From Jiulongibacter sediminis (lineage in GTDB: Bacteria > Bacteroidota > Bacteroidia > Cytophagales > Spirosomataceae): a stretch of 64,000 nt of DNA. Positions 22,005 to 36,493 of the stretch are shown here, one piece after another. How positions within the stretch are numbered: position 1 is the stretch's first letter; each line of letters begins with the position of its first letter. The DNA is taken from positions 186,001-250,000 of the forward strand of contig NZ_LGTQ01000009.1 in assembly GCF_001306455.1 (NCBI RefSeq), written 5' to 3'. The translations under genes and the position numbers were made by a program. The notes below the pieces were generated by a model. That model searched no databases, was not told the origin of the DNA, and was given only the letters and a program-made list of their open reading frames with translations.

Positions 22005-22793
22005 ATGAATATAAGTATCATAGGAACGGGCAATATCGCCTGGCATTTTATTCAGGTTTTTGAAGAAAATGATCTCAATGTGGCCGAGGTTTTTGCCCGG
22101 AAGAAGCGAAAAGCTGCTGATATGCAGGGTTATGCCTATGATGTTGCGGTGCAAACGAATCTTGATTTCAGCAATAGCACCTCAAAAGTTTTCTTTCTGG
22201 CCGTTTCTGATGATGCCATTGTCCAGGTAGCTTCTGAAATACGCCTTCCTAAAGAGGCCATTTTAGTGCATACCTCCGGTGCGAAAACTTTGGGTGAGCT
22301 GTCTGTTGCTTTGGAAAGAAACCCTGAGGTAAAAATGGGAGTTTTTTATCCTTTGATGACCTTCACGAGAGGTGTTCCGGTTGATTTCAGGAAAGTACCC
22401 ATCTGTATTGAAGGGGAAGACGAATATACCTTGTCAATTTTGAGGGGAATTGCTCAAAAAATCTCCGGAAATGTGAGCGAAATCACCTCACATCAGCGTT
22501 TGGTTCTTCATGTTGCTGCGGTTTTTGGTTGTAACTTTGTCAATCACCTGTGGGCTTTGTCAAAAGAAATAGTTGAAGAAGAGGAGATTGATTTTGAAAT
22601 TCTCAAACCCCTAATTTCTGAAACTTTTCAAAAAGCCATGAAGGCTGAACATCCGGCTCAGGTACAAACCGGGCCTGCTGTCAGAGATGATGAAAGTACC
22701 ATTGAAAAGCACAAAAAGCTTGTAAAAGAAGACCCTGACTTATTAAAAGTATATAAAACCTTAACTCAAAGTATCCAGGATTGGCACCAATAA
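22005..22793 (+). CDS. Rossmann-fold protein with DUF2520 domain (F420/NADP-oxidoreductase-like)
   Basis: Residues 3-8 (ISIIGTGNIA) form a dinucleotide-binding GxGxxA loop. The N-terminal half is a Rossmann domain with VHTSGAKTLGEL and MGVFYPLMTFTRG, and the C-terminal half is the helical DUF2520 domain (HVAAVFGCNFVNHLWALS, ETFQKAMK, GPAVRDDESTIEKH). The family is a beta-hydroxyacid-dehydrogenase-like reductase group of unknown substrate. It overlaps the next gene by 13 bp, so the two are likely cotranscribed. Confidence 0.88.
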   Translation: MNISIIGTGNIAWHFIQVFEENDLNVAEVFARKKRKAADMQGYAYDVAVQTNLDFSNSTSKVFFLAVSDDAIVQVASEIRLPKEAILVHTSGAKTLGELSVALERNPEVKMGVFYPLMTFTRGVPVDFRKVPICIEGEDEYTLSILRGIAQKISGNVSEITSHQRLVLHVAAVFGCNFVNHLWALSKEIVEEEEIDFEILKPLISETFQKAMKAEHPAQVQTGPAVRDDESTIEKHKKLVKEDPDLLKVYKTLTQSIQDWHQ

Positions 22794-23764
22794 GAATTTC
22801 CCTTATTAGTTTGTTTTTTACTCTGATCTTGCTGGCTTGTGGTGGCAGTGAAGAAACCAAAAGCAGCACTGATATAAACTCGCCCAGAGCAGAACTACCC
22901 GTTACTATTCTTTATACAGGCACGGCTGAGCCTGAGGAAAAGGAAATGATTATCAACGACAAAGAAGCTCCTGAGGGCATGATCGCTATCAATGGTGGTA
23001 ATGTCAGAATTGGCTCTGAAGAAGGTTTTGATCATGAAAGGCCCCTATTTTGGGCTCGTGTAAAACCTTATTTTCTGGATAAATCACCGGTTACGGTAGC
23101 TCAGTTTCGTGAGTTTGTAGAAGCTACAGGTTATAAAACTGAAGCCGAAGAATTTGGCAATGCCGGAGTTATTCATGAATCCACCGGTAAAAATTGGATC
23201 CTAAAAGATGGAGCCAACTGGCGGTACCCGATGGGTCCTGATTTTCCAGCTGCTAATGATGATCATCCGGTAACCCAGGTCTCTTGGCGTGATGCTATGG
23301 CTTATGCCCAATGGGCAGGTAAAAGACTGCCTCATGAAATAGAATGGGAGCATGCTGCCCGTAACGCGGAAAATTCCAGGTCTATTTATCCATGGGGAGA
23401 TTCTTTAAGCACTTCATTAGGCTTTAAAGCCAATGTTTGGAATGGGATTTTTCCTGAGTTCAACAGAGTTGAAGATGGTTTTTCAGAGACTTCACCTGTG
23501 GGCCAATACGGCGAAACTCCAATAGGTTTAACAGATATGAGCGGTAATGTCTGGGAATGGTGCCTAAACTATAAATTTGATTACAGAGCCCTTATCATTG
23601 ATGATTTTCCGGGAGGAATGGATCAGGAAAAAGCTCAACGAGGAGGTTCGTTTCTTTGTGAGCCTACCTGGTGTCATGGCTACAGGGTTTCAGGACGCTC
23701 TTCTTCCACACCTGAAACAAGCCTTTTTCATATCGGTTTTCGTTGTCTGAAAGAGATCGATTAA
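22781..23764 (+). CDS. Formylglycine-generating enzyme-like lipoprotein
   Basis: The protein has a lipoprotein signal (ILLAC, Cys20) and a full SUMF1/FGE domain (about 62-325). Both active-site cysteines of true formylglycine-generating enzymes are present, C293 and C298 in RGGSFLCEPTWC, together with VSWRDAMAYAQWAGKRLP, WEHAARN and DMSGNVWEW. Such enzymes oxidise a cysteine in sulfatases to formylglycine with copper and oxygen. The start is TTG at 22781, inside the preceding gene; no ATG would keep the signal peptide. No sulfatase is in the window, so the target is elsewhere. Confidence 0.87.
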   Translation: MAPIRISLISLFFTLILLACGGSEETKSSTDINSPRAELPVTILYTGTAEPEEKEMIINDKEAPEGMIAINGGNVRIGSEEGFDHERPLFWARVKPYFLDKSPVTVAQFREFVEATGYKTEAEEFGNAGVIHESTGKNWILKDGANWRYPMGPDFPAANDDHPVTQVSWRDAMAYAQWAGKRLPHEIEWEHAARNAENSRSIYPWGDSLSTSLGFKANVWNGIFPEFNRVEDGFSETSPVGQYGETPIGLTDMSGNVWEWCLNYKFDYRALIIDDFPGGMDQEKAQRGGSFLCEPTWCHGYRVSGRSSSTPETSLFHIGFRCLKEID

Positions 23765-23817: not shown

Positions 23818-24324
23818 ATGAAATTGTCAGGAATAAAGATTGCATTGATCGCCCTTGTGGCCGGTACACTTCGTGTATCTGGTCAAGCCTCTTTTAGGGT
23901 AGAGATTATAATTCCTGAAGCAGCACAGATTCGTCTAAAGCCGGGTACGGCAAACACTACAAATTTTAATTTTGCTACCGAAAAGCAGCTTGAAAGTGGT
24001 CTTACAAATGGTAAGGCGGCAACACTGCAGGTAAGGTCAAACAAACTTTGGGTAGCTAGTGCACAGGCAGAAACTCCTTTCTTTACGAAAGTGGAAACAG
24101 GTGATTTATCTGACATGCCAAGTACCGTACTTTCACTCAGATCTGGTAAAGGTTTGGCACCCTACTTACCATTATCTATTGTAGGAGTACCCTTGAAATC
24201 TGGAGGGACCGGACTTTTTGGTGGCAAAAATGAATTCGATGTTGATTTTAAAGCTTCTCCGTCCTTTGACCAGCCAGCAGGTACCTATGCCATGAATGTG
24301 CTTTTCACTGTAAGCTCCCTTTAG
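23818..24324 (+). CDS. Secreted fibre subunit-like protein A
   Basis: A 168-residue protein with signal peptide (1-22, ending VSGQ). It shares with three neighbours a beta-rich sequence, an N-x-x-W motif after a strand (VRSNKLWVASAQAE), and a C-terminal strand after PAGTY (AMNVLFTVSSL). This resembles pilin subunits of the DUF4402/spore-coat-U type, whose last strand is normally PAGxYxxxxxFTV. It lies 53 bp after the FGE gene and is separated from the other subunit gene by a 561-bp leader. Confidence 0.6.
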   Translation: MKLSGIKIALIALVAGTLRVSGQASFRVEIIIPEAAQIRLKPGTANTTNFNFATEKQLESGLTNGKAATLQVRSNKLWVASAQAETPFFTKVETGDLSDMPSTVLSLRSGKGLAPYLPLSIVGVPLKSGGTGLFGGKNEFDVDFKASPSFDQPAGTYAMNVLFTVSSL

Positions 24325-24885
24325 AAACGAACGTAACAGGGCTTTTAATCCTACTTTACCACACAAGAATATTCAGCTAAAATAAAGGGTAAGCCCCTGA
24401 TAGTCTTACGGTTAAATCTGGATCCATAATCTTCTCAAGCAAGTACGAATTCAGTTTTTACATATACGAAAATTTATTTTGTAAATACGAAATAAAATTT
24501 GGCATAGAATTTGGGTGATAATTGACAACGATTAGGGTTGAAAAATAGCCTACTCGATAAAGTTATTTGAAGAATTCAAATTCAATTTCAGAGGCTTGAA
24601 TTAATAGTTAAAGTCCTCAGGAAAAGTGACTGATTATCCACGAAAGTGGAAATGAAGTTTGGTTCTCGAATAGCAAACAGATTTGTCAGAAAAAAACGTA
24701 TTTAAATCTAAGGCTGCATGGTCCTTGGTCCGCCCTGATATCTGCTTTGTTGTTATTGGATACTACACTTCAGTTAAAGTCACCTCTGAATACTTCATTG
24801 ATCTCGTACTAAAGTTCAATTATTAATAACAACGTACCTGCAGAGACGTGTTAATCTGCAAACACTATTTTAAACAAAAAGTAAA
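24325..24885. other. Long gene-free leader with phased repeats
   Basis: This 561-bp stretch has no credible gene. It is A/T-rich, contains three TACGAA repeats (24444-24491) and a TTTGG-N16-TAATTG promoter-like arrangement near 24498-24525, and ends with the subunit B gene preceded by an A-rich sequence. A long regulated 5' region is the best reading. Confidence 0.5.
24444..24491. promoter_or_regulatory. Three TACGAA direct repeats at exact 21-bp spacing
   Basis: TACGAA occurs at 24444-24449, 24465-24470 and 24486-24491. The 21-bp period equals two helical turns, so a protein would bind on one DNA face. LytTR-type regulators typically bind direct repeats spaced by about 21-22 bp; whether a LytTR protein binds here is inference. 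Confidence 0.55.
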
Positions 24886-25353
24886 ATGAAAAAATCTCTT
24901 TTAACCGTAGCTTTCGCCTTCTTTGGTTTTGCTGGATTTAGCCAAAATTTCAATGTGAGCGTGTCTATCCCTCCAGTTATGTCCTTTCAAACAACTCCAG
25001 GAGAAGATGTAACTGTATCTGCAACAGAAACAGACCTGGATGGAGGAACTCTTTCAGCCTCTGGTAGTCATTCATACAAAATTAAGACGAACCAGCTTTG
25101 GCAAATTACTGCTGCAGCAGATGGTGATATCACAAACGAATCGGATGGTGCTTTTTCAATCCCTGTAAGTAACCTAACAGTTGGCGGCCAAGCCATGAGC
25201 ACTACTGGTGCTACTGTAGAAACTGGTGGAAGAGGGAAAGAAAAAACAGGAACTATTGCTTACAACTTAACTTATACGCCAGCAGATCTTTATGTATTGG
25301 AGCCGGGTACTTACTCTGCTACAATTACCTATACGCTTGAGGCCCAGCCTTAA
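24886..25353 (+). CDS. Secreted fibre subunit-like protein B (candidate major subunit)
   Basis: The 155-residue protein has a signal peptide (1-19, ending GFSQ). The mature part is small, Thr/Ser/Gly-rich and beta-predicted, with YKIKTNQLWQITAAADG in the middle and a C-terminal LEPGTYSATITYTLEAQ strand. The layout matches DUF4402-like pilin subunits. The long leader with phased repeats and a terminator directly behind suggest high, separately controlled expression, as expected for a major subunit; that is inference. Confidence 0.62.
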   Translation: MKKSLLTVAFAFFGFAGFSQNFNVSVSIPPVMSFQTTPGEDVTVSATETDLDGGTLSASGSHSYKIKTNQLWQITAAADGDITNESDGAFSIPVSNLTVGGQAMSTTGATVETGGRGKEKTGTIAYNLTYTPADLYVLEPGTYSATITYTLEAQP

Positions 25354-25374
25354 TTGGTACGGTGTTTGATTTGT

Positions 25375-25413
25375 AAAGGGCAGGAGGTTCAGACTTCCTG
25401 CCCTTTTCTATTT
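25375..25413 (+). terminator. Terminator or attenuator between subunit B and the usher-like gene
   Basis: AAAGGGCAGGA (25375-25385) pairs perfectly with TCCTGCCCTTT (25396-25406), an 11-bp stem with a 10-nt loop, followed by TCTATTT. It ends 20 bp before the GTG start of the next gene in the same direction. Confidence 0.85.
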
Positions 25414-25432
25414 AACCCTGGAAGGGATTTAC

Positions 25433-28174
25433 GTGCAAAGACTGATAAAAATATTTCTTCTTCTAAGTGCTCTGTCGTGGGTGTCACATGCCAACGGTCA
25501 GGACATGATGCTATCGGAGCAATCTGTATCAGTTCAGTTTCTTTCAGACTCTATGCATATCGCTCCGGGTAAATTTGGTTTCAATACCATCCGCATTTTC
25601 AATCACAGTTCAGAATCGAAAACATTCCGCGTCAAAATGTCTCTTCCGTCAGGCTGGAGCCTTTTGAGAGATTTACCGGCCTCTACAGAAGTTAGAGCGG
25701 GTGAAGAGAATATCCTTTCTTTTCGATTGAAACCGGGTGATCATTCCTTTGGAGGTAAACCCTACCCAGTCATCATTGACCTTGAAGACGCTCTGACCGG
25801 AGAGCAAATTCGCCGCTACATTCGTGTGGTTCTCAGTCAGATTAATAATTGGGATATTAAATTGCTGAATCCGGTCATCTATGTAGGTGATGATGAGGCT
25901 TTGCCAAATTTCAGCTTCTATCTCTATAATCATGGTAATCGGTATGAACTGTTTGAGGTGGATTTAACCTCGGAGTTTATGTTAACATTACCCTCAAAGG
26001 GTACTCAGATATTGCTGGGGCCTGCCACAGATACACTGATCACGGTGGGAGTCAGAAGTCGTCAACTAAATCAGTTGGAAGACAATATTGTGATCAATGT
26101 GGCAAGCAGAGGTACTTCAAAAACTCTTCAACAACGCATATTAATTTCTCCTTCTGAATTTAAGGCAAACCCATCGGACAAATACATTTTGCCTTTATCG
26201 TTAAGATGGCAGGCCAATGGGATGTCGAAATACAATTTTTCACAGATTCTTAACCTCTCCGGAGATGTGGAGTTTGAGAATGGTTCTTTCCTGGGGATTC
26301 GATCGCAGTCATTTATTTTTAATGACAAGTACGATGCAAGATTCAGCTACCACAGTCTGGCCTACCGAGGAAAGAAAGCGAGAGTTGAAGTAGGGTCTGT
26401 TCAGGACTTTTTTCAAAGTCAGATTTTTGGAATAGGAGGTAGAGTAGGTTACCATTTTGGATCTAAAGATTTTGAGGTCCTCGCATTACGGCCAACTTTT
26501 TATCAGGGGATTTCGCTCGGCTTCCGTCAGTCTTTTTCACTAAAGAATGCTATAACTAATGAAACCGAAGCCTACTATTCAGTAAATAAAGACAACGGAG
26601 TTACCTCAAGTTATGTTGAGAATAGCCTGAATTTGAGAAATAAAAAACTCAGACTAAGAATTGGAGGTGGCCTGAGTAATGAAAAGGCAGAAAAAATTGG
26701 AATCTCTGAAAATGGTTATTCCCTGAATTGTGCTTTGGCCAGTGTTCAAAAATGGTTTTCGGTTCAGTCAAATGTCAGGATCACCAGCTCCTGGTTTCCG
26801 GGAACGGCCAGAGGTCTGAACTTCCAAAATCATCAGGCCCTTCTTCATTTGGGGCCTTTGAGGCTAGGTGGTTTTGCCAACACCAATACCCGAACTCCGT
26901 CACTCTACAAAAATGATTTTACCGAATATGTGGAGCAGACTACCTTTCAGAATACGGACTACGGTTTTCAGTTTGGCTCTAAAATTGGTGATGGGCTACT
27001 AACAGCGAAAGCCGGGGAACATTACCAGCTGCAAAATGTAGGACTTAGTTCTTCAAATTCTTTATTAAACTCGCCGGTTGTAGGTAAAAAGCTGAGCTTA
27101 AACTATTTCAGAAGAGGTCGTTTTGGAGATCAGGTAGTTCAGTTAAATATGGTCAGAGCCGGAATGGAGAAAGAAGGGCAGGAGCTGGGCCTATTCAATA
27201 CCTATAATGCCAGTGTATCAGGCAAGGTGAAATCTCTGGGCTTTAATCTCAAATACGAATACGGGCCTTTCTATTATTTTGATTACCTGTATTATGACAG
27301 AACATCGACCTGGCAAAACAGGCAGCAATATGCCCTATTCTGGAGCTCATCTCAGTTGAAGCGACTCAAGACTCGTTTATCGGCCAACTATTACCGCACC
27401 TCTCAGGGTAACGTTAATATGCTGAATACGCAGGCTGAAGTAGAATTTGATTTTCCGTCAAGAGAAATGTCATTCAGCATGACCAATACGGTCAATGTTC
27501 TGAATCCTAAAAATTCATACTTTGTCAGTGTGGCTTTTTACAAGACATTTAACCTCAAATTGCCTTTTAAAAAGTATCACACTTTACGGGTAAGACTGTT
27601 TAAAGACAGCAATGCCAATAATACTTGGGATGCTAGTGAGCAGCCTTTAAAAGGGGCAAATCTAATTGTTAATGGCCAGAGACTCCGAACCAATAGTAAG
27701 GGTGAAGGGGTGCTCAAAAATATCAAAAATGACAATTATGTGGTAGACCTAAAAGAAAGCAGAAATATCATGGGCTGGCTTCCGGATAAGCTTTCCTCAG
27801 ACACCATTCAGTTTAAAAAAGACACCGAAGTTTCATTAGCTTTTAAAGAATCAAAAACGATTCATGGAAAGATTTCGCTCAAAACTTCTGACTATTCGCT
27901 TACCACAAAATTAGATTTGAGCGGGATGTTGATCATTGCCAAAAATCAGAACGGTCAGGAATTTACCACCCTGACTACGGAGAACGGCGAGTTTAACTTT
28001 AATCTCTTTTCCGGCGTGTACACGGTTCAAATGCCGGCATCAATAACCGGTACTAAATATTATTTTGAAGAACTCACTAAAACGGTAAATCTTCAGCAGC
28101 AGAAATCTGAATCTATTGAATTTCAACTGATTGAGAAAAAACGAAAGTTAAACATCCGTCGGTCAGTAGACTAA
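25433..28174 (+). CDS. Usher-like outer-membrane protein with Ig-like and SdrD/Cna-B-like domains
   Basis: A 913-residue exported protein (signal peptide 1-23; GTG start at 25433 fits it). Residues about 35-240 look like two NEW3/Ig-like beta domains, about 250-710 like a large transmembrane beta barrel (alternating amphipathic strands rich in Tyr, Phe, Arg), and about 712-775 like an SdrD/Cna-B domain (VRLFKDSNANNTWDASEQPL), followed by a carboxypeptidase-regulatory-like domain. Size and order recall fimbrial ushers. Flanking subunit and chaperone genes support assembly or export of surface fibres. It could instead be an unrelated barrel porin; homology to PapC-type ushers is not proven. Confidence 0.62.
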   Translation: MQRLIKIFLLLSALSWVSHANGQDMMLSEQSVSVQFLSDSMHIAPGKFGFNTIRIFNHSSESKTFRVKMSLPSGWSLLRDLPASTEVRAGEENILSFRLKPGDHSFGGKPYPVIIDLEDALTGEQIRRYIRVVLSQINNWDIKLLNPVIYVGDDEALPNFSFYLYNHGNRYELFEVDLTSEFMLTLPSKGTQILLGPATDTLITVGVRSRQLNQLEDNIVINVASRGTSKTLQQRILISPSEFKANPSDKYILPLSLRWQANGMSKYNFSQILNLSGDVEFENGSFLGIRSQSFIFNDKYDARFSYHSLAYRGKKARVEVGSVQDFFQSQIFGIGGRVGYHFGSKDFEVLALRPTFYQGISLGFRQSFSLKNAITNETEAYYSVNKDNGVTSSYVENSLNLRNKKLRLRIGGGLSNEKAEKIGISENGYSLNCALASVQKWFSVQSNVRITSSWFPGTARGLNFQNHQALLHLGPLRLGGFANTNTRTPSLYKNDFTEYVEQTTFQNTDYGFQFGSKIGDGLLTAKAGEHYQLQNVGLSSSNSLLNSPVVGKKLSLNYFRRGRFGDQVVQLNMVRAGMEKEGQELGLFNTYNASVSGKVKSLGFNLKYEYGPFYYFDYLYYDRTSTWQNRQQYALFWSSSQLKRLKTRLSANYYRTSQGNVNMLNTQAEVEFDFPSREMSFSMTNTVNVLNPKNSYFVSVAFYKTFNLKLPFKKYHTLRVRLFKDSNANNTWDASEQPLKGANLIVNGQRLRTNSKGEGVLKNIKNDNYVVDLKESRNIMGWLPDKLSSDTIQFKKDTEVSLAFKESKTIHGKISLKTSDYSLTTKLDLSGMLIIAKNQNGQEFTTLTTENGEFNFNLFSGVYTVQMPASITGTKYYFEELTKTVNLQQQKSESIEFQLIEKKRKLNIRRSVD

Positions 28175-28177
28175 AAA

Positions 28178-28678
28178 TTATTGAGAAGAGAGCGTAAAGA
28201 AAAGTGTGATTTGAAAACCTCCACTTTCCATATAGTCTCCCGGGAGTAAGGCTAAATCCAGATCGAAGTTATTCTCCTTCGATTTACTTCCGCCAGGTCC
28301 GCCTGTGGCCAAAACTTGCGGAGTTGTATTCAGAGCCACGTATTGCGTCTTTTTATCCTGCCTTAATTGTATAACTTCAGAAGAAATTTCACTTGGCATA
28401 TTGGTCGCCTGATTTGTGAATGTTTCGGCATCAGAATTTATTGTGAGCTGCCAGTTGGTATTTGATTTTATCTCTACAGAGAAAGCATTTTTCTGTGACA
28501 TTCCGGTCAGAAAATCTCTATCCTTTTTGGGTTCAAAAAACAGAGCGTTTCCCTTTGGTACTACGCTTAGATCAAGAACAGGTCTGATGTCTAAAAACGG
28601 GAAAATGGCTTCAGTTCGTAAAACCTGAGCGTTACTGAAAAAGGGGGATAATAGGGCTATGATGAACAATTTTCTCAC
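28178..28678 (-). CDS. Secreted fibre subunit-like protein C
   Basis: The 166-residue protein has a signal peptide (1-17, ending SNAQ). It contains VEIKSNTNWQLTINSDAE, parallel to the N-x-x-W motif of subunits A and B, and ends GGFQITLFFTLSSQ after LLPGDY. The 3' end is 3 bp from that of the usher-like gene (convergent). Probably a minor or tip subunit; function inferred from motifs and context. Confidence 0.58.
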   Translation of the reverse strand: MRKLFIIALLSPFFSNAQVLRTEAIFPFLDIRPVLDLSVVPKGNALFFEPKKDRDFLTGMSQKNAFSVEIKSNTNWQLTINSDAETFTNQATNMPSEISSEVIQLRQDKKTQYVALNTTPQVLATGGPGGSKSKENNFDLDLALLPGDYMESGGFQITLFFTLSSQ

Positions 28679-29185
28679 TTACTGAGGGCTTAAAGTGAAA
28701 ACGATGGAATAGAAATATTGCCCGGGCTCAATATCATAACCTACCGGGGCTACGATGAGGTCATAATCATAATAGACAGATCCGCCTCTGTTTGATCCAC
28801 GATGCTCCAAAATCGTTTGATCTGCAAAATCAAGCTGATAAAGGCGTCGGAATTTATTATTCACATTCGTATTGGCATTACTCAGGCGAATAGAATAAAA
28901 ATCACTGGAAAGGAGCTCTGTGCCGTAATTCAGGGTGGATATGACCTTGGCATTGACGGCCAGATTCAAATTCGCCGCCCCGAAAGCGAGCCGGAAGGCT
29001 CTTGGGATAGTGCGTTCAGTTTCGAAATCTAAACCCGTTTGATAGACCAATCCCAGATCAGTATTTGGTGTTACAGAAAAGTTAATGCTTTGTGCTAAAA
29101 TGGCATTAAATTTGGAACATAGAAGGAAGGTAGATATCAGAGTAACTTTCCTGATAAAAGTACTCGTGATTCGTTTTGCAAACAC
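28679..29185 (-). CDS. Secreted fibre subunit-like protein D
   Basis: It has a signal peptide (ITSTF to AILAQ) and a beta-rich mature part ending IEPGQYFYSIVFTLSPQ, the same terminal strand as subunits B and C. It lacks the N-x-x-W motif. The start is uncertain: a GTG at 29185 fits the signal peptide, and the in-frame ATG at 29263 would put 26 extra residues in front. Its stop abuts the start of subunit C, so the two are one operon; it is divergent from the chaperone gene. Confidence 0.52.
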   Translation of the reverse strand: MFAKRITSTFIRKVTLISTFLLCSKFNAILAQSINFSVTPNTDLGLVYQTGLDFETERTIPRAFRLAFGAANLNLAVNAKVISTLNYGTELLSSDFYSIRLSNANTNVNNKFRRLYQLDFADQTILEHRGSNRGGSVYYDYDLIVAPVGYDIEPGQYFYSIVFTLSPQ

Positions 29186-29211
29186 AAAGTTATCCCGATC
29201 CAATTCAATAC

Positions 29212-30015
29212 ATGATGACCCGATTTTTCCTCTTTTTTGCATTTTTTGTTTCTCTCCAGACATTCGGACAGCACCTGACGATTTACCCTACCGCAATGGA
29301 TTTTTTGCTTAATGCACCCAATGAGCGTCAAACTCAGGTCATAAATATCACAAATAAATCTGAGAGTAGCCAAACGGTACAATTGTATGCGGGAGACTGG
29401 GCCAGAAAGGAAGATGGAGGTCATGAATATTTTGAAGGAGGCAGTAAGCCTTACTCCTGTGCAAAATGGTTGGAGATTGGTTCGCGTTTTCTGACCATTG
29501 GTCCGGGTGAAACAGCCTCAGTTCCAATTACCTTGGAAGCACCTTCAGATGCCGAATCAATGGAGTCTATGAAGTGGGCTATGCTCTTTATTCAAGGGTC
29601 TGAAATCAGAGAAAAGATTGATGAAAGAGCTCCCGGGATAAAAACCAATATTAAAGAGATCATCAGGTTTGGCGTCCACATCTATCAAACCCCTCCATCG
29701 GTAACCAAATTATCAGCAAGAGCAGAGGCCTTGAATGTCAATGAAGAAACACCGGGTTTGTATGATTTGAAAGTTATCAATAACGGGGGAGTGATGCTGA
29801 AGACCACTTCCTTTTTAGAGTTAACGAATATAGCCACCGGTGAAGAATTTCAGGGAGAGCCTATAGAATGCCCAATTTTCCCAATGGGTAAGCGGACCGT
29901 TAATCTGCCATTACCTGAGAACCTCCCAAAAGGCCAATACTCCATGCTCGCTATCTTAGATTACGGTGATCCGAATTCTCTGGAGGCGATTGAGAAGATT
30001 ATTACTGTGGAGTAG
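29212..30015 (+). CDS. PapD-like periplasmic chaperone
   Basis: A signal peptide (MMTRFFLFFAFFVSLQTFGQ) leads into a 250-residue protein with two Ig-like halves. The first half has the chaperone pattern: VINITNKSE, a long G-strand-like segment with CAKWLEIGSRFLTIGPGET, and hydrophobic alternation after it; the second half is YDLKVINNGGVMLKTTSFLEL. This recalls fimbrial chaperones that hold pilin subunits by donor-strand complementation. I take ATG 29212 or 29215 as the start; the TTG at 29176 would add residues before the signal. Homology to PapD-like proteins is by pattern, not by alignment. Confidence 0.6.
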   Translation: MMTRFFLFFAFFVSLQTFGQHLTIYPTAMDFLLNAPNERQTQVINITNKSESSQTVQLYAGDWARKEDGGHEYFEGGSKPYSCAKWLEIGSRFLTIGPGETASVPITLEAPSDAESMESMKWAMLFIQGSEIREKIDERAPGIKTNIKEIIRFGVHIYQTPPSVTKLSARAEALNVNEETPGLYDLKVINNGGVMLKTTSFLELTNIATGEEFQGEPIECPIFPMGKRTVNLPLPENLPKGQYSMLAILDYGDPNSLEAIEKIITVE

Positions 30016-30391: not shown

Positions 30392-31039
30392 TCAAACCTC
30401 CACAATCCCATTCTTAATCGCAAAAAGCACCAATCCTACGCGGCTTTTCACTTCGAGTTTCATAAACAGGTTTTCGCGGTAGCCGTCGATGGTGCGGGGG
30501 GAGACGCACATTTGGTCAGCGATTTCTTTATAGGTCATTTCTGAGCAGGCGAGTTGAAGGAATTCTTCTTCTCGGGCCTGGTAGTTGATGATGGCTTTAA
30601 CAGCTTTGCCGTTGGTTTCCGGTTTAATGGATTTTAGTAAGGTATTGGCAACTAAGTCACTATGGTAATAGCCTTTGTGGTTGATTTCATCCAAAGCCAG
30701 TTTGAATTCTTTGGTGGCGGTGTCTTTGAGGAGGTAGCCGGTGGCTCCTGATCGGAGCATTTTGATAATGGCTTCTTCATCATCTTCTACAGAAAGTGCC
30801 AGAATTTTGACGTCCGGATATGTATCTGCCACCTTTCTCGCCGTATCAAAACCATTCATCAGCGGCATATTGATATCAATAAGGGCGATGTCAGGGGCTT
30901 CGTAAGCTTCGAGTTGAGAGAGAAATTCTACACCGTTTCCGGCTTCGTGGATGACCTGATAGCCTTCAAATTTATTAATGAGTTCGGCGAGGGCGTTGCG
31001 GATGAGCTGATGGTCGTCAACCAGGGCTACTTTCGTCAT
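30392..31039 (-). CDS. NarL/FixJ-type response regulator
   Basis: A receiver domain with the acidic pocket D8-D9 and phospho-acceptor D55 (IALIDINMP) is followed by a LuxR-type helix-turn-helix (about 150-205: YKEIADQMCVSPRTIDGYRENLFMKL). It overlaps the upstream histidine kinase gene by 23 bp and forms a two-component pair with it. The stop lies at the edge of a repeat region. Confidence 0.92.
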   Translation of the reverse strand: MTKVALVDDHQLIRNALAELINKFEGYQVIHEAGNGVEFLSQLEAYEAPDIALIDINMPLMNGFDTARKVADTYPDVKILALSVEDDEEAIIKMLRSGATGYLLKDTATKEFKLALDEINHKGYYHSDLVANTLLKSIKPETNGKAVKAIINYQAREEEFLQLACSEMTYKEIADQMCVSPRTIDGYRENLFMKLEVKSRVGLVLFAIKNGIVEV

Positions 31040-31835
31040 GGTTTATTGGGCGGTTAATGGGTATAGATAGCTTAAGGGTGGTTCCCTGACCTGGCGTGCT
31101 GGCTATATCTAATTTCCCATTGATCAGTTCAGCTCTGTTTTTTAGATTCGCTAATCCTGATCCCGACTGAAATCCGTTTGACCGGAATTTCTTCTCTACC
31201 TCAAAGCCCTGTCCGTCGTCAGTTAACTCTAAAGTATAGACTTCTGTGTTTTGATACAAGCTTACCGAAAGCTTTTTGGCATTGGCGTGCTTGATCACAT
31301 TCTGCACCATTTCCTGAAAAATACGAAAGACGATGATGCTGATTTTGGGCTCAATATTCACCAAAGAGCATTGATTCTCAAAGCTGGTTTCCACAAAACC
31401 CGTTTTCTCCAGCCGCTCCAGCTCAAAGGCAATCGCCTTCACTAAACCAGCCTGAAGGATGTTCTCAGAGTTCAACGTCTTCGACAAAGACCGTAAATCG
31501 GTCAAAGCCTTATTCAAATATTCCCGGCTGTCCGTCACCCGTTTCAATCCCGGATTCTCCTCATCAATATTATTCAACTGAATCTTCACCAAACTCAGCA
31601 ACTGCCCGATATTATCATGCAGCTCCCGGGCAATATGCTTCATGGTGTTTTCCTGAACTTCGTTTTTGGCGGTCAGAATCTCCTCATTGAAGGTGGCCTC
31701 CATAGCCGCTTTTTCCAACTTGTGGGCTTGCTGGCGGCGGGAGTGGATAAAGAAGAAACTGATGATAAAGATCATCAGAATCAACATAATCAATGTCCCT
31801 CCAATGATGACGATGACGACTTCGTTGACTTCCAT
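31017..31835 (-). CDS. Sensor histidine kinase, NarX/LiaS-type catalytic core
   Basis: One membrane segment (about 6-30) and a short coiled linker precede the HisKA_3 box with H73 (ARELHDNIGQLLS) and a HATPase domain (HANAKK N-box region, DDGQGF, GSGLANL). With only one membrane segment and no sensor domain of its own, it may sense through the upstream membrane protein, with which its gene overlaps by 46 bp. Phosphotransfer to the downstream regulator is expected. Confidence 0.9.
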   Translation of the reverse strand: MEVNEVVIVIIGGTLIMLILMIFIISFFFIHSRRQQAHKLEKAAMEATFNEEILTAKNEVQENTMKHIARELHDNIGQLLSLVKIQLNNIDEENPGLKRVTDSREYLNKALTDLRSLSKTLNSENILQAGLVKAIAFELERLEKTGFVETSFENQCSLVNIEPKISIIVFRIFQEMVQNVIKHANAKKLSVSLYQNTEVYTLELTDDGQGFEVEKKFRSNGFQSGSGLANLKNRAELINGKLDIASTPGQGTTLKLSIPINRPINHDESSPG

Positions 31836-33228: not shown

Positions 33229-33678
33229 AACTTTTTTCTATTAAAATTCTTTAAAATTGAAAACCTGAGCTACGTGAAAAACACCCTTTTTTAAATCATA
33301 GTCAAAAAAAATGCTATAAAGTCAGGGATTGACAGATCACCTAATCAAACCCCGGCTTTCTCAAATAAGCTCATTCTCTATCCCCTCCGGAATAAACTCA
33401 TTATACCTCCTCAGCTCAAATTCGGCTTGTGAGCGTTCACTTGCATAGCTTAAAGGTTTTAAATTTTCATACTCGCTACCATCAGAGAACTAATAATATT
33501 CGGTGAGAAGTTAGATGAACCAATCTCATATTACAGTAGAAGTGTAAGGAAATTAAAGAATAATTTATCCGCATTATACCAGACTTTTTCAAAAACGTGA
33601 AAACTACGGTAAGTGATATGGGATAATTCCCCTTACAAGTGATTGCTGGAAGGTTGAGCTTTGTTCAAAAAAAATAAT
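33229..33678. other. Gene-free region with a decayed gene end
   Basis: About 450 bp upstream of the haem peroxidase gene. Apart from the fragment at 33361-33489 I see no feature; the sequence just before the peroxidase is A/T-rich and likely holds its promoter. Confidence 0.5.
33361..33489 (-). pseudogene. Decayed C-terminal gene fragment
   Basis: On the minus strand a 42-codon open stretch after an in-frame TAG reads coding-like (SYASERSQAEFELRRYNEF, IPEGIENELI) and ends at TGA. Upstream in the same frame there are several stops. It looks like the remaining end of a lost gene of unknown family. Confidence 0.4.
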
Positions 33679-34992
33679 ATGAGCAAACATCATGGAACCA
33701 ACGAAAGCATGTGGAAACTGATTGAACGCACATGTGACGAAAATGACATGTGTAAGGATAAATTCGGCCACAATTTTGGGTATTTATTTGGCAAAGGAGA
33801 CACTGCTGCTTTCTCAAAAGAAAAACTGTCAGAAGTAGCCGCTTCAATGACGGATTCAAGTCAAACTCCTGACCTGGAAACTCCTGTCGGCTTCGCTTTT
33901 TTTGGCCAATTTATTGACCATGATATTACACTCGATGTTATCAGTAAGCTCGGTGAGGTGGTTGATGATGTCACTGAAATTGAGAATTTAAGAACACCGC
34001 GGCTTGAACTGGACTCTGTATATGGCAGAGGAAAAGAAGGAACTCCGTTTTTATTTGACGGCGATAAAATAATTCTGGGACATAAAAGAAACCCAAAGGA
34101 TTTTCAGCGAAATGCAAAAGGAACTGCCATTATCGGCGATCCCAGGAATGATGAAAATCTGTTCATTAATCAGTTACACTCCGGCTTTTGCCAGTTTCAT
34201 AATTGTCTGATTGATGACTTCCAAATGACCTTTGAGGAGGCTCAACAATTTGTACGGTGGATTTACCAAAAGGCCATCGTGGATGAGTTTTTAAATGAAG
34301 TTGTTCAAACAAATATTTACACTCCCATAAAGCACGGTTTTTTTAACGCCCACCTACCCGGTCCTGTAAATTGGAATAATGTTCCTTTGATTTCAGTAGA
34401 ATTTTCTGCTGCAGCTTACAGGTTTGGGCACTCTCACATCAGAAATAATTACAGACTTAATAGAAGAAAAAGAGGTGACTTATTTGATTTCGGCAGCTTT
34501 GCTCCTGTAAAAAAAGGATTCAATCTGGATTGGAAATTTTTCTTCGACTTGGATGGGCACAGCTACCTGAAATGCCGACCAATAGACACTTCACTTGCCG
34601 CTAACCTTTTTAATTTGCCTTTTATTCACGATCTGATAAAAAGTCTTGCAGACAGGAATTTGCAACGTGGACAAAGGACATTCGGCATCAGGACAGGCGA
34701 AGATATTACTCAAAATTTGTTTAGTAGCCAGCCTTTACCTCTACATCAAAAAATAGATGATGCCGGCCTAACGGAAACTCCGTTATGGTTTTATATTCTT
34801 CATGAAGCTGAGCAAGGAGGAGGAAAATTAGGGCAGATAGGAGGTACCATTGTAGCAGGTACTTTACTGAATCTTCTCCTCAAAGACCCAAATTCCTATG
34901 TGAACAAATCACCTGGATTTGACCCATTTAATGTGATTCCAAGACATAACAGTGGGTCCATTTTATCTTCGATATTTGATCTTATAAATTAG
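33679..34992 (+). CDS. Animal-type haem peroxidase
   Basis: A 437-residue protein of the peroxidase-cyclooxygenase superfamily. The distal haem site is visible (H81 in FGQFIDHDIT, with the nearby Asp that may form a haem ester), as are GDPRNDEN and the proximal His251 in YRFGHSHIRNNYRL. These enzymes oxidise halides, phenols or fatty acids with peroxide. No signal peptide is seen. I take ATG 33679; the TTG at 33661 would add six residues. It is followed by another haem peroxidase gene. The substrate is unknown. Confidence 0.85.
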   Translation: MSKHHGTNESMWKLIERTCDENDMCKDKFGHNFGYLFGKGDTAAFSKEKLSEVAASMTDSSQTPDLETPVGFAFFGQFIDHDITLDVISKLGEVVDDVTEIENLRTPRLELDSVYGRGKEGTPFLFDGDKIILGHKRNPKDFQRNAKGTAIIGDPRNDENLFINQLHSGFCQFHNCLIDDFQMTFEEAQQFVRWIYQKAIVDEFLNEVVQTNIYTPIKHGFFNAHLPGPVNWNNVPLISVEFSAAAYRFGHSHIRNNYRLNRRKRGDLFDFGSFAPVKKGFNLDWKFFFDLDGHSYLKCRPIDTSLAANLFNLPFIHDLIKSLADRNLQRGQRTFGIRTGEDITQNLFSSQPLPLHQKIDDAGLTETPLWFYILHEAEQGGGKLGQIGGTIVAGTLLNLLLKDPNSYVNKSPGFDPFNVIPRHNSGSILSSIFDLIN

Positions 34993-35023
34993 TATTCACA
35001 TCGTTACAGATATTCTTATACGG

Positions 35024-35055
35024 GGAAAATACCCTATTTAATAGGGCAATTTTCC
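35024..35055. other. Two-part hairpin between the peroxidase genes
   Basis: GGAAAAT pairs with ATTTTCC (outer 7 bp) and CCCTAT with ATAGGG (inner 6 bp) around a TTA loop, with small internal bulges. There is no T run after it, so it is more likely an mRNA structure or operator than a terminator. Confidence 0.5.
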
Positions 35056-35104
35056 AATGAAACTGAAATGGAAATAGATCGAGATTTGACAAAAAATCAA
35101 TTCT

Positions 35105-36493
35105 ATGCTGATTAACCAATACAACCCTCAACTACGCTCCGAATTAGAAGCAATTCAAGGCAATATTCTGAAAGGGCACGGCCGGAAATATACGGCTCAT
35201 GTTTTTCTCAAAGGGAAAAAGGGACAAAGGAACAGCACTGCCTTTTGGATCAGTGAACTTGTAAATAAGGAAGAGTCAGTTGTGAAATCAGGTTATCAGC
35301 AACTCAAAGCGAATCACTTGTTTAAAACACAAAAAATTGACGGAGGCTTATTTGGTGGTTTCTATATCAGTTTTGAGGGGTATATTTTTTTGGAAGGTAA
35401 GGATAAAGCTCAACGGTTATTCTCCGGGAACACCTCTTTTATAAATGGTATGAAAAGGGCTGCTCTAAATGATCCGGAGCCTTCCAAGTGGGATGAGGTC
35501 TATCAGGAGAATTGTCACTTTATGCTATTGCTCGCCGATGATTCTAAATCAACTTTGGTGAATCAGGTAGAAAAAATCAAAAGAGAAACCAGTTCCTTCC
35601 TGCAAACGCTTCACATTGAATATGGGAATGCCATATTTAATAAAAACAAGGCAGCCATTGAGCATTTTGGTTATGCTGATGGCATCTCGCAGCCACTTTT
35701 CTTCGAGGATGAGTTTGAGAAGTATTTAAATGATCATCGCATAAGAAATCTTAAAGATTTAAAGTTTGATCCAAGAGCTGAGGGCAAGTTGGTTCTGGTT
35801 AAAGACAAGTTTGTGGATGAACCCCATTCTAAAGGTAGCTTCTTTGTTTATCGCAAACTGGAGCAGAATGTAAAAGGCTTCAAAAAAGCAGAAGCTGAGC
35901 TTGCTGAAAAACTACACTTGATAGGAGTTGACGAGGAAAGAGTAGGGGCGATGATTGTTGGTCGTTTTGAGGATGGAACACCTGTGGAAGTATCAGGGCA
36001 TGAAGGCATGATGGGTGCTGAACGATTTAATGATTTTGACTACACCTTTAACGGAGAATCTAAATGCCCCTTTCATGCCCACATCAGAAAGACTAATCCT
36101 CGCAATACAGAAAAGGAAGCGGCAGATCGGAGAATGGCCAGGCGAGGAATTCCTTTTGGAGAATATAAGCCGGATATACCCATCGATGAAATGCCCATAG
36201 GTGGTGTTGGCTTGTTGTTTATGTCTTTCCAGGCCAGTCTGGAAGATCAGTTTGAGCACATACAAAAAAATTGGGCCAATAATTCTGATTTCCCACAAGG
36301 AAAGGCCTATGATAAGCCCGGTCTGGATTTGATTATTGGTCAGGGGAAAAGCCTGGCAAAAGGTGCTTATGCCACTGAATGGGGTAACCCAACGTCCATG
36401 AAATCAGCAGACTTTAATCATTTTGTAAGCATGAGGGGCGGTGAGTATTTCTTTGCTCCGAGTATGATGTATTTAAAAACAATAAATATTTAA
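35105..36493 (+). CDS. DyP-type peroxidase
   Basis: The 462-residue protein has the dye-decolourising peroxidase signature GYADG with D192 as catalytic acid, proximal His326 in CPFHAHIRKTNPR, and the RRMARRGIPFG region carrying the distal arginine. DyP enzymes oxidise bulky aromatic compounds with hydrogen peroxide. No Tat or Sec signal is visible, so it is probably cytoplasmic or an encapsulated cargo-like enzyme; no encapsulin gene is nearby. It lies 112 bp behind the other haem peroxidase and only 6 bp before the next gene. Confidence 0.9.
   Translation: MLINQYNPQLRSELEAIQGNILKGHGRKYTAHVFLKGKKGQRNSTAFWISELVNKEESVVKSGYQQLKANHLFKTQKIDGGLFGGFYISFEGYIFLEGKDKAQRLFSGNTSFINGMKRAALNDPEPSKWDEVYQENCHFMLLLADDSKSTLVNQVEKIKRETSSFLQTLHIEYGNAIFNKNKAAIEHFGYADGISQPLFFEDEFEKYLNDHRIRNLKDLKFDPRAEGKLVLVKDKFVDEPHSKGSFFVYRKLEQNVKGFKKAEAELAEKLHLIGVDEERVGAMIVGRFEDGTPVEVSGHEGMMGAERFNDFDYTFNGESKCPFHAHIRKTNPRNTEKEAADRRMARRGIPFGEYKPDIPIDEMPIGGVGLLFMSFQASLEDQFEHIQKNWANNSDFPQGKAYDKPGLDLIIGQGKSLAKGAYATEWGNPTSMKSADFNHFVSMRGGEYFFAPSMMYLKTINI

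Follow-up and report, generated by a model that had tools for sequence, protein, structure and literature searches.

A candidate chaperone-usher-type surface fibre system in Jiulongibacter sediminis and other Bacteroidota

Introduction

Chaperone-usher (CU) pili such as those assembled by FimCD, CfaAC and CsuCD depend on a set of subunits, a chaperone and an usher, and known ushers are built around a 24-strand barrel. The phyla given for CU families in PMC4654587 are Proteobacteria, Cyanobacteria and Deinococcus-Thermus; Bacteroidota are not among them. Here we analyse a cluster of six genes in a 64,000-nucleotide stretch (the window; assembly GCF_001306455.1, contig NZ_LGTQ01000009.1, positions 186,001 to 250,000) of the 4.47 Mb genome of the Bacteroidota species Jiulongibacter sediminis. 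The cluster encodes four small secreted proteins (S1-S4), a barrel protein (USH) and a chaperone-like protein (CHP). A preliminary description of this DNA had proposed a Bacteroidota surface fibre system of the CU type. All six open reading frames (ORFs) were present where it had placed them, and the proposal is supported by models of USH and S1, by gene co-occurrence and by profiles of a sister group of clusters. In the literature searched we found no account of such a system in Bacteroidota.

Other described systems resemble the cluster in part. Bacteroidota fibres, with the type V (FimA/Mfa1) fimbriae of Bacteroidales as the example, are thought to use strand complementation; type V fimbriae arise from lipoprotein precursors and are not known to have a chaperone or an usher. 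S1 is similar in predicted fold and in sequence to TLP-1a and TLP-1b (PDB 9ikj, 9ikk), whose protomers are larger (236-237 residues). TLP-1 is probably the fibre described from pond water in the CryoSeek study, reportedly joined by donor strands that run from protomer n+4 to n, and presumably one of the pond-water filaments of Wang et al. According to a 2026 review, those filaments could not be conclusively identified (PMC12967142). The WxL/WxLIP clusters of Firmicutes share a two-immunoglobulin (Ig)-domain partner with our cluster, as judged from the similarity of CHP, and differ in having no outer-membrane barrel. The small proteins probably also resemble WxL in their W motif and tail. For WxLIP, a membrane helix is described and binding to peptidoglycan is reported (PMC10599100).

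Results

Three kinds of protein travel together in the cluster: pilin-like subunits whose starts resemble signal peptides, a chaperone-like protein that is conserved, and an outer-membrane barrel protein of usher-like domain order. We consider it likely that the six genes encode a divergent CU pathway whose product is a surface fibre of donor-strand-linked subunits. By eye, every one of the six proteins has a signal-peptide-like start that ends in Q.

A local search showed S1, S2 and S3 to be mutually homologous (S1-S3, E 2e-10; S2-S3, 5e-7) and S4 to be more distant (S4-S2, 0.03). In the AlphaFold2 (AF2) model of S1 (62 sequences; predicted local distance difference test score, pLDDT, 90.4) residues 24-35 are strand-free, the first strand begins at residue 36 and a C-terminal strand ends the chain. 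Foldseek returned TLP-1a as the best match (1e-7), then CfaB (6e-5), with CFA/I and type 1 pilins directly after the TLP entries. Structural comparison gave a Z score of 11.2 to TLP-1a (147 aligned residues, root-mean-square deviation 3.4 Å), 10.5 to the second TLP-1 entry and 7.3-7.5 to the CU pilins CfaB, CooA and CsuA/B. S1 is thus predicted to be a pilin-like, incomplete Ig subunit with an N-terminal extension, which agrees with the Ig-like subunits expected beforehand, and S2-S4 are probably pilin-like subunits by homology.

TLP-1 and TLP-2 are entries solved by cryo-electron microscopy (cryo-EM), each made up of 16 identical chains, and the subunit family profile matched TLP-2 and TLP-1 at 2.3e-8 and 1.2e-7, respectively. 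A reverse search with a TLP-2 stretch against 1586 ORFs from the loci compared below gave 39 matches at E <= 1e-3, 39/39 of them in the subunit homology component. A search of 296 Bacteroidota genomes with a TLP-2 stretch revealed no close copy; its single match (E 0.008) contains two internal stops. The mature N-terminal segments of the component show a hydrophobicity alternation of 1.04 versus 0.67 in shuffles (235 of 242 proteins, which are related to each other and whose cleavage site was crudely guessed), a pattern expected of a donor strand.

The N-x-x-W motif described beforehand for three of the small proteins was found as NKLW in S1, NQLW in S2 and NTNW in S3, and S4 is without it. 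The shared tail held in part. G-x-Y is present in S1 (PAGTYAMNVLFTVSSL), S2 (EPGTYSATITYTLEAQP) and S4 (EPGQYFYSIVFTLSPQ), and S3 has SGGF in its place (ESGGFQITLFFTLSSQ); the FT(L/V)S-like terminal strand ascribed to all four fails for S2, which ends in YTLE (YTLEAQP) and not in FTLS. The suggested homology of the subunits to DUF4402 (PF14352) was not supported: S1 reached 15 bits (E 0.041; cut-off 25.2), 1/62 family members matched at E <= 0.5, and hhalign to the sister subunits, one of which matches DUF4402, gave 0.066, the same as ten shuffles. Window-type subunits match the subunits of paralogue-type clusters (5.4e-8); to subunits from the plug-type sister clusters they show no match (0.066).

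In two Flaviaesturariibacter loci (L066 and L110) S4 and S3 are fused into one protein. The N-terminal half matches S4-type subunits (25/28 in L066 and 31/37 in L110, at E < 1e-3), the C-terminal half mostly S1- or S3-type subunits (120/134 and 106/128), and only few residues separate the halves ahead of the next alternating segment. Donor-strand-complemented subunit fusions are made in the laboratory, and the S4-S3 proteins look like natural fusions of this kind; they suggest that S3 donates to S4, which would put S4 on the tip side. Several Lacihabitans loci (L054-L056) carry three S1-type genes in tandem ahead of USH, a duplication that makes S1 the likely shaft subunit.

The AF2 model of USH (41 sequences; pLDDT 87.1; predicted template modelling score, pTM, 0.61) consists of two Ig-like domains, 26 strands and two C-terminal sandwiches (Table 1). 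This reproduces the unusual usher layout of the preliminary description, including its Cna-B-like C-terminus, which matches CarboxypepD_reg (3.3e-7) and SdrD_B (6.1e-5), both below the Pfam cut-off. The usher-sized barrel protein was likewise recovered as a predicted barrel whose best Foldseek matches are usher structures: in the PDB, ranks 1-10 are all FimD or PapC (E 1.5e-15 to 2.5e-11, 748-828 alignment columns). The 26-strand model shows no inserted domain that could be the usher plug. A plug profile matched 0/41 window-type USH proteins at E < 1e-3, versus 9/9 sister and 5/5 Escherichia coli ushers, the same 14 from which it was built; in a broader USH set 1/28 matched, at 4.5e-4 and within the C-terminal domain.

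The N-terminal domains of USH matched CHP at 6.7e-8 with and 8.9e-5 without signal peptides (lowest of 20 shuffles 0.015) and the sister chaperones at 4.9e-7, with no match to E. coli chaperones (0.029). A chaperone-like N-terminal pair is suggestive from these profiles and no stronger, because the E value weakens once signal peptides are removed; the resemblance to CHP may merely reflect a shared Ig superfamily. Distant USH homologues that end in SPOR or LysM domains occur in four loci (L029 6709-9699, L030 7506-10625, L031 6983-10159 and L168 8945-12658), and such ends would tie the periplasmic end of the usher to peptidoglycan.

CHP of the window matched WxLIP_PGBD (PF06030) with E 0.0019 and 18.7 bits, below the cut-off of 27.3. 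Its residues R152, G154, H156, Y158 and P161 are invariant in 61 members, and residues 144-162 were aligned with the SRIKLYYRP strand of E. coli chaperones, an alignment that is not significant. Single-sequence searches of the PDB gave no match for CHP or for USH. Subunits matched CHP at 1e-5 with signal peptides, a signal that was lost without them (0.095). At E <= 0.5, 48/61 CHP homologues match WxLIP_PGBD, the strongest with 3.2e-7; among PDB profiles EfmWxLIP1 comes closest to CHP (E 0.012), and in a published AF2 prediction a WxLIP strand completes the WxL sandwich (PMC10599100). The cluster could then be a diderm counterpart of the Gram-positive WxL/WxLIP complex, in which CHP stabilises subunits at the envelope and the barrel displays them singly, with no polymer. 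We regard this as improbable, given that the closest solved subunit relative lies in cryo-EM entries of 16 identical chains, that an usher-like barrel with two C-terminal domains is conserved beside CHP, that a set can comprise as many as six subunits, and that no C-terminal membrane helix such as that of WxLIP was seen in CHP by eye.

CHP homologues were detected in 14/59 relatives and, with a broader profile, in 68/296 genomes sampled across the phylum. For comparison, 90 sources were assembled from the window, the surroundings of 23 CHP matches and 66 further named loci, with at least five places entering twice under different names. Sixty-three of the 66 named loci are titled as Bacteroidota, including Lacihabitans, Niastella, Chitinophaga, Pedobacter, Mucilaginibacter and Litoribacter; the other three are metagenome-assembled genomes titled Williamsia, Azovibrio and Sphingomonadales and are probably mis-binned. 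The CHP model matches 89 sources, the USH model 65 and both models 64; the sole source without a called CHP ORF (L029) has a CHP match in a genome-wide profile search. Twenty-five loci have CHP and subunits and lack USH, and 13 of them have a neighbour of ~900-1000 amino acids (aa) at the expected usher position. The only such neighbour inspected, in L076, looks by eye like a zinc peptidase. These CHP-only loci at first suggested that CHP and USH had come apart; whole-genome searches covering 13 of the 25 located a full-length USH elsewhere in 12.

In the even sample of 296 genomes a USH match lies <=1.3 kb from 28/34 strong CHP matches (E <= 1e-20; 34 of 86 matches listed), and CHP lies within 6 kb of 28/28 strong USH matches (E <= 1e-60). 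Of the latter, 27 extend over the greater part of the model, and two of the 27 contain one internal stop; the USH of G097, split across two contigs, was counted via its N-terminal half. The USH model touches 248/296 genomes, in the great majority by short matches, mostly to the C-terminal domains, and these were not counted. Search models A2 and A8 include sequences from six of the sampled genomes, so those pairs are not independent. A strong CHP homologue at L169 8036-8881 (+) has no USH nearby, as is the case in four further genomes of family f17. Subunit-like ORFs form one homology component (n=242 in 88 sources, S1-S4 included), whose candidates were selected partly by the tail pattern, so that the tail is not independent evidence. 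Because of this single component and the pairing of CHP and USH throughout the phylum, the grouping is more than chance. The search for the same gene set in other genomes, proposed beforehand as a check, hence showed its co-occurrence in many Bacteroidota. The host genome itself has a second, paralogous cluster on contig C4, in the order subunit-CHP-USH-subunit-subunit.

The Pfam usher family PF00577 was above its cut-off in 0/296 Bacteroidota genomes (the E. coli control was detected), and G000 has no match at E <= 0.001. Three weak matches (G175, G235, G282) proved to be sister ushers, long proteins beside CHP homologues; the CHP homologue of G282 was detected only in a small local search. 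We aligned nine sister ushers (L164-L166, L168, L172, L174-L177) and 11 sister chaperones, from the same loci plus L167, which has no recognised usher, and L171. Small secreted proteins stand beside most sister loci, one of them matching DUF4402 at 9.7e-4. The nine sister ushers and five E. coli K-12 ushers matched across 674 columns (3.6e-15); with the C-terminal domains removed, a match of 3e-11 spanned the plug and the beginning of the barrel. Common descent of sister and E. coli ushers is well supported by these profiles. Between the CHP family and the 11 sister chaperones the match was 1.9e-19 with signal peptides and, once these were removed, 4.6e-16 (224 columns). Window-type USH matched the sister ushers in the C-terminal 245 columns only (5.4e-14; 3.6e-14 in another comparison), and none of 20 reversed or block-shuffled profile controls fell below E 0.0049. 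At the profile level, common descent of window-type and sister systems is therefore well supported for the chaperone and the usher C-terminal domains, and a tie of CHP to PapD via the sister group is suggestive. The profiles do not extend this common descent to the window-type barrel and N-terminal domains.

A number of results weigh against a CU pathway. Pfam searches at E <= 1 found neither PF00577 on USH nor PF00345 on the window proteins, and the direct sequence membership of USH in the usher family and of CHP in the PapD family, to which the preliminary description had likened them, is absent. Direct profile comparison of the USH family with E. coli ushers was not significant, and that of the CHP family with E. 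coli chaperones gave 0.011 with and 0.18 without signal peptides. The link between the sister chaperones and seven K-12 chaperones drops from 2.3e-6 to 5.1e-4 without signal peptides (probability 31%; 87 columns; lowest of ten shuffles 0.073). The Z scores of S1 to CU pilins are level with those to a CEP192 domain (7.6) and a hexosaminidase domain (7.7), and 6/34 strong CHPs, in five genomes of family f17 and in G254, are without a nearby USH. The Foldseek TM-scores of USH to ushers are low (0.24-0.30), and VIA, a comparison that mainly tests the barrel, placed FimD (15.7) and PapC (15.6) behind 6r2q_B, a chain of the Mtr complex that aligned over 418 residues with a Z score of 20.2. Finally, the USH barrel did not match the sister usher barrels (0.083).

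We take 6r2q_B to be MtrB, a 26-strand barrel. Its top rank and the 26 strands of the USH barrel would suit a conduit like MtrB or some other large barrel for transport, with the small proteins as its plugs or partners. This appears very improbable, since the 6r2q_B match is confined to the barrel and ushers lead the Foldseek matches, which extend over most of the chain, none of the six proteins has a CxxCH motif, the partners are pilin-like, and the sister clusters have usher homology together with a homologous chaperone. Another explanation is an analogous system partly convergent on ushers, whose chaperone and C-terminal domains came by descent and whose barrel and N-terminal domains were recruited elsewhere. 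The N-terminus and barrel of USH indeed match neither sister nor E. coli ushers, with only the C-terminal domains matching the sister group (USH C-terminal domains against those of E. coli ushers: no match, 0.22). The C-terminal domains, however, match in order over ~245 columns, neighbours and domain order are the same, and barrels lose sequence similarity quickly; we consider such convergence unlikely.

S4 probably starts at GTG 29185 rather than at 29263, because a normal-looking signal peptide results and an overlap with CHP, which likely starts at ATG 29212, is avoided. The two genes are divergent with ~26 bases between the likely start codons (29185-29212), and their promoters may therefore sit inside each other's coding sequence.

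Table 1. Features of the six-gene cluster, with positions in the window.
Feature	Position	Strand	Basis
S1, pilin-like subunit, 168 aa, shaft candidate	23818..24324	+	ORF; S1 AF2 model and Foldseek
S1 residues 24-38, presumed N-terminal donor segment following the signal peptide	23887..23931	+	putative role
S1 residues 161-167, C-terminal strand	24298..24318	+	DSSP of AF2 model; conserved tail
S2, pilin-like subunit, 155 aa	24886..25353	+	ORF; homology to other subunits
USH, usher-like outer-membrane barrel protein, 913 aa, GTG start	25433..28174	+	AF2 model; Foldseek
USH residues 32-245, two Ig-like N-terminal domains, weak CHP similarity	25526..26167	+	AF2 model; profile comparison
USH residues 250-713, barrel, 26 strands in DSSP, plug-less	26180..27571	+	AF2 model; VIA; plug model
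USH residues 716-901, two C-terminal beta-sandwich domains, CarboxypepD_reg/SdrD_B-like	27578..28135	+	Pfam; AF2 model; profiles
S3, pilin-like subunit, 166 aa, probable donor to S4	28178..28678	-	ORF; homology; fusions
S4, pilin-like subunit, probably tip-side, likely start GTG 29185	28679..29263	-	ORF; fusions
CHP, periplasmic chaperone-like, 267 aa from likely ATG 29212 (ORF 29176-30015)	29212..30015	+	ORF; sequence comparison
CHP residues 144-162 (KTNIKEIIRFGVHIYQTPP), presumed G1 donor strand	29641..29697	+	putative role

Genes for a LuxR-type response regulator and a HisKA_3 histidine kinase adjoin the cluster (Pfam; window 30392-31835, -) and may regulate it; by eye, ORFs alike in size and sequence also follow the cluster in a genome of the same genus (L032). 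On the other side, an exported FGE-sulfatase-domain protein (1.3e-62; 22781-23764, +) adjoins S1, and this neighbour is retained beside the cluster in L032/L052 and L034. An animal-haem-peroxidase-like gene stands beside a Dyp-type peroxidase gene at 33661-36493 (+).

Discussion

The cluster resembles the CU pili of FimCD, CfaAC and CsuCD in its complement of genes, which comprises subunits, a chaperone and a barrel protein of usher size with a C-terminal domain pair, in the usher-like fold predicted for USH, and in the pilin-like fold, N-terminal extension and C-terminal strand of S1. It differs from them in that the window proteins are without PF00577, PF00345 and a plug, USH starts with an Ig pair, CHP is nearest to WxLIP, and the USH model has 26 strands against 24 in known ushers.

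In the CU pathway that we favour, subunits short of their last strand would be exported by Sec. CHP would hold them via its R-x-G-x-H-x-Y strand, with the C-terminal FT(L/V) strand of the subunit alongside, and pass them to USH, whose N-terminal Ig pair would receive them, a task that falls to the N-domain and plug in classical ushers. The CHP strand would then give way, at the mouth of the barrel, to the N-terminal extension of the following subunit, and the fibre would grow outwards through the barrel. Its shaft would consist of S1 (together with S2) and resemble the TLP-1 assembly, with S3 as the adaptor and S4 at the tip.

A more specific version is possible, and we put it forward tentatively: a further CU lineage, particular to Bacteroidota and their relatives, whose usher has lost the plug and uses its own chaperone-like N-terminal pair for receiving and gating, and which builds thick tubular fibres of the TLP-1 type. 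If true, this would identify the type of bacterium and the machine behind unassigned pond-water fibres. The cluster would give the TLP-1 assemblies a genetic address, USH would illustrate plugless gating, and related, so far unrecognised machinery would account for the way in which surface fibres may be made by many environmental Bacteroidota.

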